A DNA stretch of 64,000 bases, from contig NZ_AP027741.1 in NCBI RefSeq assembly GCF_030296755.1, forward strand, positions 2,781,001-2,845,000, read 5' to 3'. Positions 7,834 to 31,927 of the stretch are shown piece by piece (position 1 is the first letter of the stretch; each line of letters opens with the position of its first letter). Origin of the DNA: Methylophaga marina. Its GTDB lineage: Bacteria > Pseudomonadota > Gammaproteobacteria > Nitrosococcales > Methylophagaceae. A program made the position numbers and the translations under genes. Below the pieces are notes generated by a model, which was not told the origin of the DNA, searched no databases, and saw only the letters and a program-made list of their open reading frames with translations.

Positions 7834-7930
7834 GAACCTGATGCTGCCTGCGTGTTTGGAGAAAAAATAGTAGACCATTGTGCCAGATGAGGCTTGTGTA
7901 AAAAATCCTTTTTGATTTACCATGCAAAGC

Positions 7931-9945
<2,015 letters not shown>

Positions 9946-28313: not shown

Positions 28314-28556
28314 TTATCTGGGCTTTGACTCAGATAATGTTCGCAGCTTTTCTGCCAGCGCTTTGGTATCTGTAGCATCTTCTTCTGTTGGTCGAAGTGT
28401 GGCAACAGTCGAAATGGTCTGACGAAGTTGTTGTAGATAATTTCGGCAGCAACTACAGACAAGCAGGTGTAAAAATAGACCGAGTCGCTTTCTAATAGGC
28501 AGATCACCTTCAAGATAATTACTGGCTTCTTCTGCCACATCTTTACATTGAAACAT
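28314..28556 (-). CDS. Small zinc-type anti-sigma factor
   Basis: An 80-residue cytoplasmic protein with a cysteine near the start (FQCKDV) and an HLLVCSCC cluster near residue 30-37, the pattern of short zf-HC2 anti-sigma factors. It has no membrane helix. It starts 3 bases after the ECF sigma gene ends, so it is very likely cotranscribed with it and would hold the sigma factor inactive until a metal or redox signal disturbs its zinc site. The role is inferred from position and motif. Confidence 0.75.
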   Translation of the reverse strand: MFQCKDVAEEASNYLEGDLPIRKRLGLFLHLLVCSCCRNYLQQLRQTISTVATLRPTEEDATDTKALAEKLRTLSESKPR

Positions 28557-28559
28557 CTG

Positions 28560-29159
28560 TTATCTTCCTCGGTATTCTTCGATTTTGTGGTGTATGGTCG
28601 TGCGGGCCCGATGCAAGAGCACTCTAGCATTAGACGAACTGATATCCAGAATGTTACAGATCTCTGACATTGATAAGCCCTCCATATCATACATAGTTAA
28701 CAAAGCACGCTGGTTTGCGGGTAATTGACGAAAGCTTGTTTCAATCAGTTCTTTTAGTTGTTCGTTTTCAAGAAGGGCATCAGGTGTCTCCTGTTCCCAG
28801 GGTAAAACATCATCTAAGCGATGGCCTCGTTGATCAAATTTATCTCGAGGGACTGATTCCCAGCCTTCATCCAGAGAAACTTGTCGTTGCTCTCGCTTGA
28901 ACCGAGTCTTGGCAGCATTACTGGTGATTTGCAAAAGCCAAGTTTTTAAGCTGGAACGTGCCTCGAAGTTTGGTAATGCTTTGATGGCTGACAGCCAGGC
29001 ATCTTGAACAATCTCATCAGCGAACGCTTCACCCACAATAGCTCTGGCAGTCGTGAGCATTAAGCCATGGTATTCAGATACAACATAGTCAAACGCTTTA
29101 GCTTCACCCTCTATCAACTGCTGAATTAAGAGGCGCTCTTGTGTTGGACTATGCTTCAC
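28560..29159 (-). CDS. ECF-family RNA polymerase sigma factor
   Basis: A 199-residue sigma-70 family protein of the ECF type with only regions 2 and 4. Region 2 (about residues 22-90) has FDYVVSEYHGLMLTTARAI, ADEIVQDAWLSAIKAL and FEARSSLKTWLLQIT. Region 4 (about 140-190) has FRQLPANQRALLTMYDMEGLS followed by the helix-turn-helix. The linker is acidic. It is divergent from the HvfA-like operon, whose upstream gap carries an ECF-type promoter, so it probably controls that operon and perhaps itself. Confidence 0.9.
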   Translation of the reverse strand: MKHSPTQERLLIQQLIEGEAKAFDYVVSEYHGLMLTTARAIVGEAFADEIVQDAWLSAIKALPNFEARSSLKTWLLQITSNAAKTRFKREQRQVSLDEGWESVPRDKFDQRGHRLDDVLPWEQETPDALLENEQLKELIETSFRQLPANQRALLTMYDMEGLSMSEICNILDISSSNARVLLHRARTTIHHKIEEYRGR

Positions 29160-29176
29160 ATTTTTTTCATTATGTT

Positions 29177-29204
29177 TGTAACAATCCTTCGTGAGGCTCG
29201 TCTA
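29177..29204 (+). promoter_or_regulatory. ECF-type promoter for the HvfA-like operon
   Basis: TGTAAC at 29177-29182 and CGTCTA at 29199-29204 are separated by exactly 16 bases. An AAC-type -35 and a CGTC-type -10 at this spacing are typical of ECF promoters. Transcription would begin near 29211. A short stem (AGACGG with CCGTTT, 29212-29233) followed by A and seven T would lie at the very 5' end of the message. The divergent sigma gene starts just 18 bases to the left. Confidence 0.6.
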
Positions 29205-29267
29205 CTATGCAAGACGGACAACAATGCCCGTTTATTTTTTTAATAACAATAGAAGGAAGTAATCATC

Positions 29268-29591
29268 ATGGCAACCTTAAATAAATCATCAGTCGCTATA
29301 GCCACATTAGCAGCAGGTATGGCTTTGTCACCATCTTTAGCCAGTGCCGACAGCAACCCATTCTCTTCAACAGAACTTTCGAGTGGTTATATGCAACTTG
29401 CTGAACATCATGCAGACGAAGCGAAATGTGGTGAAGCAAAGTGTGGTGGTGATAAAAAAGCTGAAGAAGCCAAATGTGGCGCGGATAAAAAAGCAAAAGA
29501 AGCTAAATGCGGTGGCGATAAAAAAGCTGAAGAAGCCAAATGCGGTGCAGATAAAAAAGCACATGAAGCCAGCTGTGGTGGTAATCACTAA
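29268..29591 (+). CDS. HvfA-like secreted Cys-repeat peptide (putative RiPP precursor)
   Basis: A 107-residue protein with a signal peptide (cleavage likely after ASA, residue 27), a short linker, then EAKCG motifs. Cysteines are at 54, 59, 70, 81, 92 and 103; the last five are exactly 11 residues apart. The spacer alternates GGDKKAEEA and GADKKAxEA, and the final motif is EASCG. This matches the HvfA class of low-complexity peptides, whose EGKCG cysteines are turned by a DUF692 enzyme with DUF2063 into copper-binding thiooxazole/oxazolone-type groups. AAGGAAG precedes the ATG. No modifying enzyme gene is adjacent; a DoxX gene follows, as in hvfABCD. Confidence 0.8.
   Translation: MATLNKSSVAIATLAAGMALSPSLASADSNPFSSTELSSGYMQLAEHHADEAKCGEAKCGGDKKAEEAKCGADKKAKEAKCGGDKKAEEAKCGADKKAHEASCGGNH
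29445..29576 (+). repeat. 33-bp in-frame tandem repeat in the HvfA-like gene
   Basis: Four 33-base units (11 codons each) code for residues 60-103. Units 1 and 3 share GGDKKAEEAKC; units 2 and 4 share GADKKA. This suggests a 66-base unit that duplicated. Codons differ between copies (TGT/TGC, GGT/GGC/GGA), so the copies are not very recent. Confidence 0.85.
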
Positions 29592-29610
29592 AATACACTG
29601 GCAGTTTCTA

Positions 29611-29635
29611 AATAAGGGCTCTTTGAGCCCTTATT
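29611..29635 (+). terminator. Hairpin between the HvfA-like gene and doxX (attenuator or processing site)
   Basis: AATAAGGGCTC and GAGCCCTTATT form a perfect 11-base-pair stem with a TTT loop. The following bases (TATTA) are not a strong T-tract. It could be a leaky terminator or a 3' stabiliser that keeps the peptide message abundant while letting some transcripts continue into doxX-msrPQ. doxX starts 17 bases after it. Confidence 0.65.
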
Positions 29636-29652
29636 TATTAAGGAGAACAGGT

Positions 29653-30285
29653 ATGTCTATCTGTCATATTTATCATGGTGTCTCAACCAGCTTAAATAAA
29701 ACGCGTGCCGTCGATTTTATGGCACCACTATTATTACGTGTGTATCTCGCGCCTGTTTTTTGGGTGGCTGCCAACAACAAATGGAATCCGTTTGATGCTG
29801 ATAGCTCTCTGAATAGCACAATCGCTTGGTTTGCGAATCCTGATTGGGGATTGGGGTTACCTTTTCCTGAATTGATGGCTTATCTGGCCTGGGGAGCGGA
29901 ATACTTTGGTGCAATTTTTCTCATTCTGGGCTTGGGCATTCGCTTAGTCACACTACCGTTAATGTTTACTATGATTGTCGCTGCTGTCACTGTCCATTGG
30001 CAAAACGGTTGGCAGGCAATACATGACACGATGAGTCCTTTTGCATCAAATGATGTCAATGAAGCTATAGAGCGTCTTCACAAGGCGAAAGAGATTTTGC
30101 AGGAATATGGGCATTACGACTGGTTAACACAACATGGTAATTTCGTTGTGCTTAATAATGGTATTGAATTTGCCGCCACCTATTTCCTGATGTTGCTAGT
30201 GTTGTTTTTTATCGGGGCTGGTAAGTACTTCAGTGTTGATTACTGGATAAGCCAATACTGTCAGCCGAGCGAGGAGGGTAAGTAA
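29653..30285 (+). CDS. DoxX family membrane protein (HvfD-like)
   Basis: A 210-residue inner-membrane protein of the DoxX family with four main hydrophobic segments (about residues 24-42, 78-98, 102-120 and 172-195). AAGGAG lies 8 bases before the ATG at 29653; the open frame extends further upstream through the Cys-repeat gene but is not coding there. DoxX proteins accompany HvfA-type peptides as the fourth gene (HvfD) of hvf and gig operons. Their role is unclear. Here the DoxX stop directly abuts the msrP start. Confidence 0.85.
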   Translation: MSICHIYHGVSTSLNKTRAVDFMAPLLLRVYLAPVFWVAANNKWNPFDADSSLNSTIAWFANPDWGLGLPFPELMAYLAWGAEYFGAIFLILGLGIRLVTLPLMFTMIVAAVTVHWQNGWQAIHDTMSPFASNDVNEAIERLHKAKEILQEYGHYDWLTQHGNFVVLNNGIEFAATYFLMLLVLFFIGAGKYFSVDYWISQYCQPSEEGK

Positions 30286-31248
30286 ATGTTTTTTAGAAAA
30301 CAAAAATCCTGGGAAATAGCTGAATCAGAAGTCACTGACTTTGATATTTATCAAAACCGTCGACAGTTTCTCAATACCAGCATATCGATTGGTCTAGCCA
30401 GTGCATTTCCATCAATGGCGTTAGCTGCGACCGAAGATAATCCGACTCAACTTTTCAAAGGCTTGAGTAATAGTCCTTTTTCTACAGAAGAAGAAAAAAC
30501 GGATTTTGAGTCAATCACGACATATAACAATTTCTATGAGTTTGGCACATCAAAAACGGATCCCGCACTGAATGCGACCGCTTTTCCAGATAAGTTTGAG
30601 TCATGGAAAGTGGTTATAGATGGTGAGTGTGAAAAACCTGGTACATACGATTACGATGAATTGATTAAACCCTTCTCTTTAGAAGAACGAATATATCGAA
30701 TGCGCTGTGTGGAGGGGTGGTCTATGGTGATTCCATGGATTGGTTTTCCGCTGGCTGATTTGCTAAAAAAAGCGCAGCCAAATGCGAATGCAAAATTTGT
30801 TGAATTCACGACATTATATGACCCAGAACAAATGCCGGGGCAGCGACGCGCTGTGCTTGACTGGCCTTATGTAGAAGGCTTACGCATTGATGAAGCAATG
30901 AATCCTCTTACACTCTTGTCAGTGGGGCTCTATGGCAAAGAGTTATTAGGACAAAATGGGGCACCAATTCGATTAGTTGTGCCTTGGAAATACGGTTTTA
31001 AAAGCATTAAATCGATTGTGCGTATACGGTTTGTAGAAAAAATGCCTCAGACGGCATGGATGAAAGCTAATGCTAGAGAATATGGCTTTTATTCAAATGT
31101 GAATCCAAATGTTGACCACCCACGTTGGAGTCAGGCAAAAGAACGCCGTATCGGTGAATTCTTGAAGCGTAAAACGCTGATGTTTAATGGTTACGGCGAG
31201 CAAGTGGCAGATCTCTATGCTGGCATGGATCTTAAACGTTATTTCTGA
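30286..31248 (+). CDS. msrP: Periplasmic protein-methionine-sulfoxide reductase catalytic subunit MsrP
   Basis: A molybdoenzyme (formerly YedY) that repairs oxidised methionines in periplasmic proteins. The 320-residue protein has a Tat signal with twin arginine ([18 protein letters not shown] at about 26-43), and the molybdenum-binding cysteine in [12 protein letters not shown] near residue 145. GGAGGG precedes the ATG, which starts immediately after the doxX stop. Sitting in the sigma/anti-sigma-linked HvfA operon is unusual and suggests a joint response to metal or oxidant damage in the periplasm. Confidence 0.95.
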
Positions 31249-31255
31249 AAACTAG

Positions 31256-31927
31256 ATGTCAGCAAAAAACAAAGCAAGCATGGTCAAGGCAGGAGTGTTT
31301 TTTATCTGTCTTGTGCCACTCATTTATCTAATCTGGGGACTCTTTACTGAGAACCTTGGTGCTAATCCAGTTGAGACATTAACCAGAAGCTCTGGCTTAT
31401 GGGCATTACGTTTTTTATTAATCACTTTGCTGGTTTCACCTATCCGTTGGTATACAGGTCTGACGGCAGTCGTCAAATATCGACGCATGTTAGGTCTCTA
31501 TGCCTTTTTCTATGCCTTTGTCCATATGCTGTTATATCTTGGTCTCGATCAACTTTTTAATATTCATGACATTTGGAAAGATATCATCAAACGTCCATTC
31601 ATCACTGTGGGCTTCATCAGTTTTATTTTGCTGTTACCCTTGGTCGTAACCTCAACTAATAAAATGATAAAAAGGTTGGGTGGTAAACGCTGGAAAAGGT
31701 TACACCGTCTGACATATTTAGTTGCTTCTTTGTCGTGTCTTCATTTTCTTATGCTGGTAAAGGCCGATATTCGTGAACCAGTCATTTACATACTGTTGCT
31801 TTTAGCCTTGTTTTTTGTCAGGTTTTTACATTCATTTAATAAAAAAAGCTGGTCACTCGCTGATTTTTTTCGCAAACTGATATACAACACCTCAACGTTG
31901 TGGTGTGAACTAACCATAAGTCAGTAA
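31256..31927 (+). CDS. msrQ: Heme membrane subunit MsrQ
   Basis: The b-type cytochrome (formerly YedZ) that passes electrons from the quinone pool to MsrP. The 223-residue protein has six membrane helices. Likely heme histidines are seen in FFYAFVHMLLYLGLD (near 83), KRLHRLTYL (near 150) and SCLHFLMLVK (near 163). It follows msrP by 7 bases and ends the operon. No clear terminator was seen before aceE. Confidence 0.93.
   Translation: MSAKNKASMVKAGVFFICLVPLIYLIWGLFTENLGANPVETLTRSSGLWALRFLLITLLVSPIRWYTGLTAVVKYRRMLGLYAFFYAFVHMLLYLGLDQLFNIHDIWKDIIKRPFITVGFISFILLLPLVVTSTNKMIKRLGGKRWKRLHRLTYLVASLSCLHFLMLVKADIREPVIYILLLLALFFVRFLHSFNKKSWSLADFFRKLIYNTSTLWCELTISQ

Follow-up and report, generated by a model that had tools for sequence, protein, structure and literature searches.

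An extracytoplasmic function sigma factor locus that places an HvfA-like peptide precursor beside msrPQ in Methylophaga marina and its relatives

Why should the gene for a cysteine-repeat peptide lie next to genes for periplasmic methionine repair, and could one sigma factor serve both? The question is raised by a locus of Methylophaga marina at positions 28314 to 31927 of a 64-kb stretch of DNA (the window, in what follows), which belongs to a single contig of 3.107 Mb. On the minus strand are genes for an anti-sigma factor and an extracytoplasmic function (ECF) sigma factor; divergent from them, on the plus strand, are hvfA, hvfX, msrP, and msrQ. The initial annotation had named the same six genes at the same positions, and protein family models (NF and Pfam accessions) bear it out in this. 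We propose that the sigma factor, the anti-sigma, hvfA, hvfX, and msrPQ probably form a self-limiting periplasmic stress module. Where loci, genomes, and contigs must be told apart, they are given L, G, and C numbers.

Linkage of hvfX to msrPQ

In the window, hvfX (29653 to 30285, plus strand) encodes a membrane protein of the DoxX family that scores 231.7 bits against NF050144 (cut-off, 80). It is followed by msrP (30286 to 31248, plus strand; NF003767, 478 bits against a cut-off of 207), for the periplasmic molybdenum-containing catalytic subunit of methionine sulfoxide reductase, and by msrQ (31256 to 31927, plus strand; NF003831, 180.4 bits against a cut-off of 130), for the heme-binding membrane subunit. 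The TAA of hvfX and the ATG of msrP follow each other without a gap, the direct abutment that had been read initially. A search of 63 genomes of the order at the NF050144 cut-off found HvfX in 48, with MsrP directly behind it in 48 of 48 (gaps of 26 to 121 nucleotides [nt] between the hidden Markov model matches). In 44 of 47 relatives the distance between the genes ranges from -14 to 32 nt, which leaves little room for a separate msrP promoter. The initial annotation had staked its reading on the arrangement being conserved in relatives, as this adjacency proved to be. In 45 of the 48 genomes the hvfX contig also has HvfA repeats upstream of hvfX; two of the remaining three (G009 and G014) end at a contig edge, and in G022 a precursor was found by pattern. 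Sigma homologues are present in 46 of the 48 family loci and anti-sigma genes in 45, the rest in each case being truncated by contig ends. Methylophaga aminisulfidivorans MP and Methylophaga thiooxydans DMS010 both have the locus. All 48 MsrP proteins of the family carry RC[VT]EGW, and 32 begin with a twin-arginine-like [x]RRxFL (a pattern of our own). Two loci, L072 and L082, have more than one hvfA-type gene ahead of hvfX.

Outside the family, a scan of contigs with an HvfX alignment gave, among the best 80 matches, 22 of Methylophagaceae type and 58 others; most of these 58 loci are partial, many on short contigs, and 36 of them yielded a precursor gene. HvfB adjoins HvfX in 38 of the 58, and in one short fragment besides, and MsrP or MsrQ lies beside HvfX in none of the 58, many of whose contigs are short. 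Among 229 sampled Gammaproteobacteria, at the cut-offs used, HvfX occurs in 59, MsrP in 98, and both in 36. Three of these 36, all family members, have the two genes adjacent; in the other 33 they lie on different contigs (27 genomes) or on the same contig more than 180 kb apart (6 genomes). The linkage of hvfX to msrP is thus a family trait in the 229-genome sample.

It might be argued that msrPQ is merely downstream in a region that has not been rearranged and gains read-through without any joint function with the peptide. The flanking genes are nearly as fixed as the cassette (aceE in 45 of 48 loci, DUF1244 in 44, and an ABC transporter in 39), so that synteny alone is weak evidence for a functional tie between hvfA and msrPQ, and none of the 33 sampled outside genomes that hold both genes has them adjacent. 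Natural losses bear on the same point. The reduced 1.5-Mb genome G027 has lost hvfX, has no sigma homologue at an E value of 1e-20, and has no anti-sigma gene within 12 kb around msrP; what remains is hvfBC, msrPQ, a degenerate hvfA with three KCG, and a sequence that matches the hvfA promoter. Both the msrPQ genes and the promoter match have therefore been retained there without the sigma factor, which, like the fixed flanks, counts against our proposal. G022 has hvfX fragments with stops, a sigma remnant of 79 residues, and a drifted promoter. These losses fit the sigma factor and hvfX as a common unit, and they show that msrPQ can outlive it. Against a purely positional explanation stand the narrow hvfX-msrP gaps, with their little space for another promoter, and the occurrence of other ECF systems that connect a secreted peptide or a bufferin with Msr enzymes (PMC8315932, PMC3511200, PMC7907618). 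The near-overlap of hvfX and msrP is better evidence for one transcript than synteny is, and we regard the positional explanation as improbable.

The claim of a single four-gene operon needs qualification at its first junction. Between hvfA and hvfX lies a terminator-like hairpin (29613 to 29633, plus strand), TAAGGGCT-CTTTG-AGCCCTTA followed by TTTATT, which separates hvfA from hvfX-msrPQ. A GC-rich stem with a T run is found between hvfA and hvfX in 40 of 44 loci (stems of at least 6; L072 was excluded by a length limit), and a looser count with stems of at least 5 gives 41 of 45 gaps. The stems vary in sequence yet stay paired. In 100 shuffles of these gaps, with dinucleotides preserved approximately, the mean was 0.23 hairpins and the maximum was 2. 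Canonical hvfA-hvfB gaps have a hairpin in 1 of 30, a rough comparison in that 18 of the 30 have zero length by the start estimate. The 19 nt from hairpin to hvfX in the window are too few for another promoter, and read-through to hvfX-msrPQ is therefore likely.

Two sites of one promoter-like sequence

The sigma gene (28560 to 29159, minus strand) encodes 199 amino acids from a GTG, with Pfam Sigma70_r2 and r4_2 above cut-off. Its partner (28314 to 28556, minus strand), of 80 amino acids, is a zinc-type anti-sigma by NF052368 (51.4 bits, cut-off 50), with Pfam zf-HC2 at 15.1 bits, under the cut-off of 22.2. It has C4-x25-H30-x3-C34-x2-C37, an arrangement kept in 43 of the 45 family anti-sigmas read, and all 45 have H-x3-C-x2-C, which we take to be the defining motif of zinc anti-sigmas of the RsrA type. 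The pair thus carries the sequence features expected of an ECF sigma factor with a zinc anti-sigma (RpoE2/HrsE and RsrA types).

Ahead of hvfA is a putative ECF-type promoter, TGTAAC-N16-CGTCTA (29177 to 29204, plus strand). Of 46 divergent regions as excised, 41 contain the exact form TGTAAC-N16-NGTCTA, with a single spacing in all 41, and the number rises to 43 of 46 once G038 (L055) and G041 (L058), whose excised regions ran short, are included. As for the others, L066 (G044) ends in GTCTC and L090 (G022) in GTATA, and L089 was excised short, its genome (G035) having no exact match. L066 and L089 also share a stretch of 700 to 900 bp between the sigma gene and hvfA, with a TetR-like frame by eye, and an anti-sigma match on the opposite strand; both lack the exact motif. 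In 23 genomes of the genus, TGTAACA-N15,16-GTCTA has 32 exact matches across 19 genomes, against 10 for a reversed-pattern control; 19 are ahead of hvfA, 12 are sigma-internal sequence (one of which is on a small contig of its own, G045 C104), and 1 is elsewhere (G055:C19). A looser pattern, TGTAAC-N14..18-CGTCTA, was rejected as a regulon finder: it gave four matches in the window genome, two of them elsewhere (L012 and L013), and four in the reversed-pattern control, and so is not specific alone.

Outside the family the motif was found, among the 58 loci from the best 80 matches, only in L178 (Pseudomonas ullengensis) and L179 (a metagenome-assembled genome of the Pseudomonadales). Each has a sigma homologue (about 43% identity) together with an anti-sigma homologue (32 to 34%). 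The motif is absent from L163 (sigma homologue, 32%) and L140 (28%). With this fixed spacing, and with motif and sigma and anti-sigma homologues coming together outside the family, the sigma control that had been claimed for the operon stands at the level of sequence; we infer that the sigma factor acts at the hvfA promoter, and the sequence evidence for the pairing is strong.

The same sequence, TGTAAC-N16-CGTCTA, occurs within the sigma gene itself (28631 to 28658, minus strand). There it coincides with the region-4 codons for CNILDISSSN and ends 75 nt ahead of the anti-sigma start. This internal site is exact in 33 of 46 loci and present in relaxed form in 42 of 46. Because it is also coding sequence, its conservation might be a by-product of amino acid and codon constraint and not the mark of a promoter. 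Synonymous conservation was scored for 149 codons in 41 sigma genes, on a scale where 1 is full conservation and 0 is the gene's own codon usage; L056 and L061, which nearly duplicate L052 and the window, were excluded, as were L048, L074, and L090 (for length, a stop, or an unknown residue). Codons 175, 176, and 170, the three of highest excess, all fall within the motif, with 175 and 176 (xCG TCT) having the largest excess of the 149. The six codons of the -35 and -10 parts average 0.74, the four spacer codons 0.12, and the whole gene 0.10, and not one of 200,000 sets of six codons drawn at random came up to 0.74. Part of the score of 1.0 for Cys codon 168 comes from TGT being a common codon. 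The comparison is fair within a gene, since shared ancestry affects all codons, and it is not a formal phylogenetic test.

In favor of a by-product, the -35 part encodes a conserved Cys-Asn, the sigma gene of L178 lacks the embedded motif, which also speaks against our proposal, and internal matches were seen in only two of eight other-family sigma loci (L206 and L207), in the relaxed form TGTAAT. The excess at codons 175 and 176, not shared by the spacer, argues for a constraint on the nucleotides, as does L179, in another order, where the motif is at the same place. We therefore consider a by-product unlikely, and the codon constraint suggests that the locus may have a built-in shut-off loop.

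Sigma homologues were found at an E value of 1e-35 in 11 of the 229 sampled genomes, 8 of them outside the family. Six of these eight neighbor a radical SAM gene, one (L208) an MNIO/DoxX-like cluster, and one neither. In L202 to L207 the radical SAM neighbor of the homologous sigma/anti-sigma pair is presumably ArsS-like, and we take most of these loci to hold, in addition, two glycosyltransferase-like genes. In L202 and L203 a TGTAAC-N-GTCCA site lies ahead of divergent genes. The sigma homologue of L208, in another family, is 41% identical and stands by genes resembling HvfB (42%), HvfX (26%), and HvfC (23%); a search of L208 for the promoter motif did not find it.

The start of the sigma gene shows a further variation. 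In the window the reading frame begins at GTG 29159. An ATG at 29170 is in frame in the same-species genome G036 and out of frame in the window, because the A-tract behind it (29161 to 29167, minus strand) has seven A in the window and eight in G036. The length of this tract differs among relatives, and the difference of one base may reflect a sequencing error, a slip, or phase variation. The sole Rfam match at gathering score within the window is a thiamine pyrophosphate riboswitch at 7927 to 8032 (62.7 bits).

Maturases at a second locus

The peptide gene hvfA (29268 to 29591, plus strand) encodes a putative secreted precursor of a ribosomally synthesized and posttranslationally modified peptide (RiPP), with leader NPFSSTELSSGYMQLA and six EA[K/S]CG repeats; the six EAxCG motifs counted initially prove to be five EAKCG and one EASCG. 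Its start resembles a signal peptide, as judged by eye. It passes NF050137, "HvfA family RiPP metallophore" (36.0 bits, cut-off 19.5), and fails the narrow HvfA equivalog NF050188 (16.8 bits, cut-off 95); it has no DUF2282, the criterion for Buf1 bufferins, and no match in PHROGs.

The initial annotation had set the peptide among HvfA, HvfB, HvfC, and DoxX. The DoxX protein (HvfX) does lie beside it, and hvfB and hvfC, for the multinuclear nonheme iron-dependent oxidative enzyme (MNIO) and its partner, are absent from the hvfA-hvfX-msrPQ cluster of the window genome. This genome has two MNIO genes, at 0.353 Mb and 2.964 Mb. The first is an HvfB (438.8 bits, cut-off 360) with an adjoining HvfC (292.8 bits, cut-off 142), 2.46 Mb from the cluster in contig coordinates, or about 0.65 Mb in the opposite direction should the chromosome be circular. 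The second (L011) is BufB-like at 280 bits, under the cut-off of 310, and neighbors a DUF2282 peptide, a weak HvfC-like partner, and a DoxX gene. The split is general: HvfB is above cut-off in 46 of the 48 hvfX genomes and is never linked to the hvfX cluster: 8 genomes have the two on one contig, 49 kb to 2.46 Mb apart, and 38 have them on different contigs. The two genomes without HvfB are 85% and 55% complete. A second, lower-scoring MNIO is present in 17 of the 48.

We read 21 hvfBC loci, 20 fetched from 52 genomes with HvfB and the one of the window genome. An hvfC follows hvfB in all 21, eda lies behind in 19, and a rhodanese gene lies ahead in 15. In 20 of the 21 a secreted protein of about 250 amino acids with a conserved CGC motif, here called SecrX, is encoded ahead of hvfB (in the window genome at L010:6704-7456, which is G000:C1 at about 352.7 to 353.5 kb); it is absent from G027, which has also lost hvfX. 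SecrX has no Pfam or NCBIfam match and no homologue at the 58 outside loci. Its AlphaFold model has a mean predicted local distance difference test (pLDDT) score of 76.7 and a predicted template modeling (pTM) score of 0.60, and the best 50 Foldseek matches listed are mostly beta-sandwich proteins with a query TM-score of 0.34 or less. It is possible that SecrX is an unrecognized partner of hvfBC in the family. The hvfA promoter motif was found in none of the 21 hvfBC loci and not in the bufferin locus, and a shared ECF promoter for hvfBC was rejected on its absence from all 21.

Precursors without an adjacent MNIO may be modified from another locus or not at all, as PMC12452194 suggests. In our case modification by HvfB-HvfC in trans is suggested by the leader, in which the loose pattern NPFxxxELxxGY occurs in 45 of 45 split precursors and in 33 of 37 others (of the remaining four, L147 is truncated and the other three, L141, L143, and L149, come close to the pattern). 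EAKCG and EGKCG number 149 and 159 in family precursors, versus 19 and 183 in other precursors, and EAKCG-rich peptides with hvfBC in cis do exist (L175 and L189). That the peptide is left unmodified, or is modified by the second MNIO, of BufB type, seems to us very unlikely. The unlinked position of hvfBC would be in keeping with it, as would the presence of the BufB-like enzyme with its DUF2282 peptide; against it, HvfB is kept far more widely than the second MNIO, and precursors with hvfBC in cis have a leader of this kind too.

A possible circuit and its relatives

The proposed module would work as follows. At rest the zinc-type anti-sigma would hold the ECF sigma factor, as its family suggests. 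An oxidant or a thiol-reactive metal may alter the Cys/His zinc site and free the sigma factor, which would then start transcription ahead of hvfA, a step strongly indicated by sequence. The conserved hairpin would end part of the transcripts, giving the peptide in excess and hvfX-msrP-msrQ by read-through. HvfA would be matured by HvfB-HvfC from the second locus, which has no such ECF-type promoter, given the shared leader and the EAKCG peptides found beside hvfBC elsewhere; once exported, it may buffer copper(I) or take up oxidant, and HvfX would assist at the membrane. MsrPQ, from what is known of its family, would repair methionine sulfoxide in periplasmic proteins with electrons from the quinone pool. 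Free sigma factor would also fire the embedded promoter, where the nucleotides are constrained and activity is presumed, and the anti-sigma made alone from it would shut the response down. The copper and oxidant roles of the cluster are likewise our inference. We give about even chances to the wider reading of a family-wide split RiPP circuit, in which the precursor is inducible and its maturases are not part of the regulon, the peptide is coupled to methionine repair, and the codons of the -35-recognizing region 4 conceal a target promoter of the sigma factor itself, from which anti-sigma is made and the response ended.

Further observations weigh against the proposed module. The motif is absent from L165 (sigma homologue, 40%; no anti-sigma match) and from L185 (sigma, 30%; anti-sigma, 26%). 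The differing neighbors of sigma homologues in other families mean that the sigma factor is not tied to an hvfA-msrPQ function. Since hvfBC lacks the motif throughout, induced HvfA may outrun its maturases. It is also conceivable, though doubtful, that the Cys-bearing HvfA is a sacrificial scavenger like the Met-rich MrpX and BcrX, with hypochlorite or reactive sulfur as the signal and copper incidental. The layout resembles that of Brucella bcrS-abcS/bcrXQP and Azospira MrpX, and the hvf genes of Haemophilus respond to hypochlorous acid (HOCl) via RpoE2. Set against this are repeats and a leader of the copper-binding thiooxazole type, the retention of HvfB, and the scarcity of methionine: among 45 mature peptides, 20 contain a single Met and 1 lacks it altogether, so that a Met sink is not general.

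For the stress module as proposed, a lineage in which hvfA-hvfX has become fixed to msrPQ beside one dedicated sigma factor, with the maturases apart, offers a clean genetic test. It opens the question of whether the peptide serves copper, oxidant, or both, and of whether HvfX acts with the peptide or with MsrPQ. The embedded anti-sigma promoter would be a testable example of regulatory DNA inside the codons of a DNA-binding domain.

Literature on this Methylophaga arrangement was not found, nor any joining MsrP, a sigma factor, and DoxX, or Methylophaga, copper, and methionine sulfoxide reductase, in a search that most subscription papers lay beyond; among the papers listed, none names both HvfA and MsrP. 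A proven functional parallel to the embedded site comes from Corynebacterium glutamicum: within sigH lies a SigH-dependent promoter for rshA alone, with starts 62 and 66 nt ahead of the anti-sigma gene (PMC3489674). There too the anti-sigma promoter lies within the sigma coding region; the organism belongs to the Actinobacteria, however, and the promoter is of SigH type. In its accessible text we found no selection analysis of the embedded site.

Several systems link a sigma factor, a peptide, and Msr enzymes. In Caulobacter one ECF factor, sigma-F, likewise joins bufferins (DUF2282, DUF692, and DUF2063, with DoxX in one) to MsrP: it controls two bufferin operons and YedY/MsrP, the inducers being chromium and cadmium, not peroxide (PMC3511200). 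It differs in having separate operons, Buf1 precursors, NrsF as negative regulator, and a promoter given as GTAACC-N16-CGAA. Brucella BcrS/AbcS controls a Met-rich peptide and MsrPQ in a response to HOCl (PMC8315932), and in both Brucella bcrS-abcS/bcrXQP and Azospira MrpX-MsrPQ (the latter as described in the same paper) an ECF sigma/anti-sigma pair stands by a secreted peptide and msrPQ, as here. Their peptide is Met-rich and not a Cys RiPP, the accessible text mentions no DoxX, and the Brucella sigma factor is assigned to ECF16. In Escherichia coli, MsrPQ is copper induced and protects CusF (PMC9302797).

On the side of the peptide, a 2025 survey (PMC12452194) reports in one sentence that a few Buf_EGKCG/oxazolin clusters include oxidored_molyb or ferric-reductase genes. 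In these, EGKCG precursors have for neighbors the two enzyme families found here. It mentions sigma genes for Buf1 clusters and shows stand-alone precursor genes as well, so it may have counted the hvfA-hvfX-msrPQ arrangement; its accessible text gives no organism, split, promoter, or regulation for these clusters, and Methylophaga is absent from the main text. HvfBC makes copper-binding thiooxazoles, peptides whose physiological role is described as open, and HvfX is uncharacterized (PMC13419390, PMC13097082). In Haemophilus influenzae, studied with HOCl, RpoE2 and a 67-amino-acid anti-sigma control msrAB, mtsZ, and the DoxX/UPF0276/DUF2063 (hvf) cluster (PMC7907618). Nontypeable H. influenzae hvfABCX (oxazolin) and the Fontimonas fon cluster share with our system a KCG-repeat precursor, HvfB, HvfC, and HvfX; here, by contrast, hvfBC is elsewhere, hvfX is directly ahead of msrPQ, the sigma gene lies next to the precursor gene, and EAKCG and EGKCG are about equally frequent. 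Novelty had been claimed initially for the mixture of parts, which was overstated in light of the kindred combinations in PMC12452194, PMC3511200, PMC7907618, and PMC8315932. Compared with them, the cluster is a new arrangement of known parts, and its unexpected element is the second sigma target site within the sigma gene.

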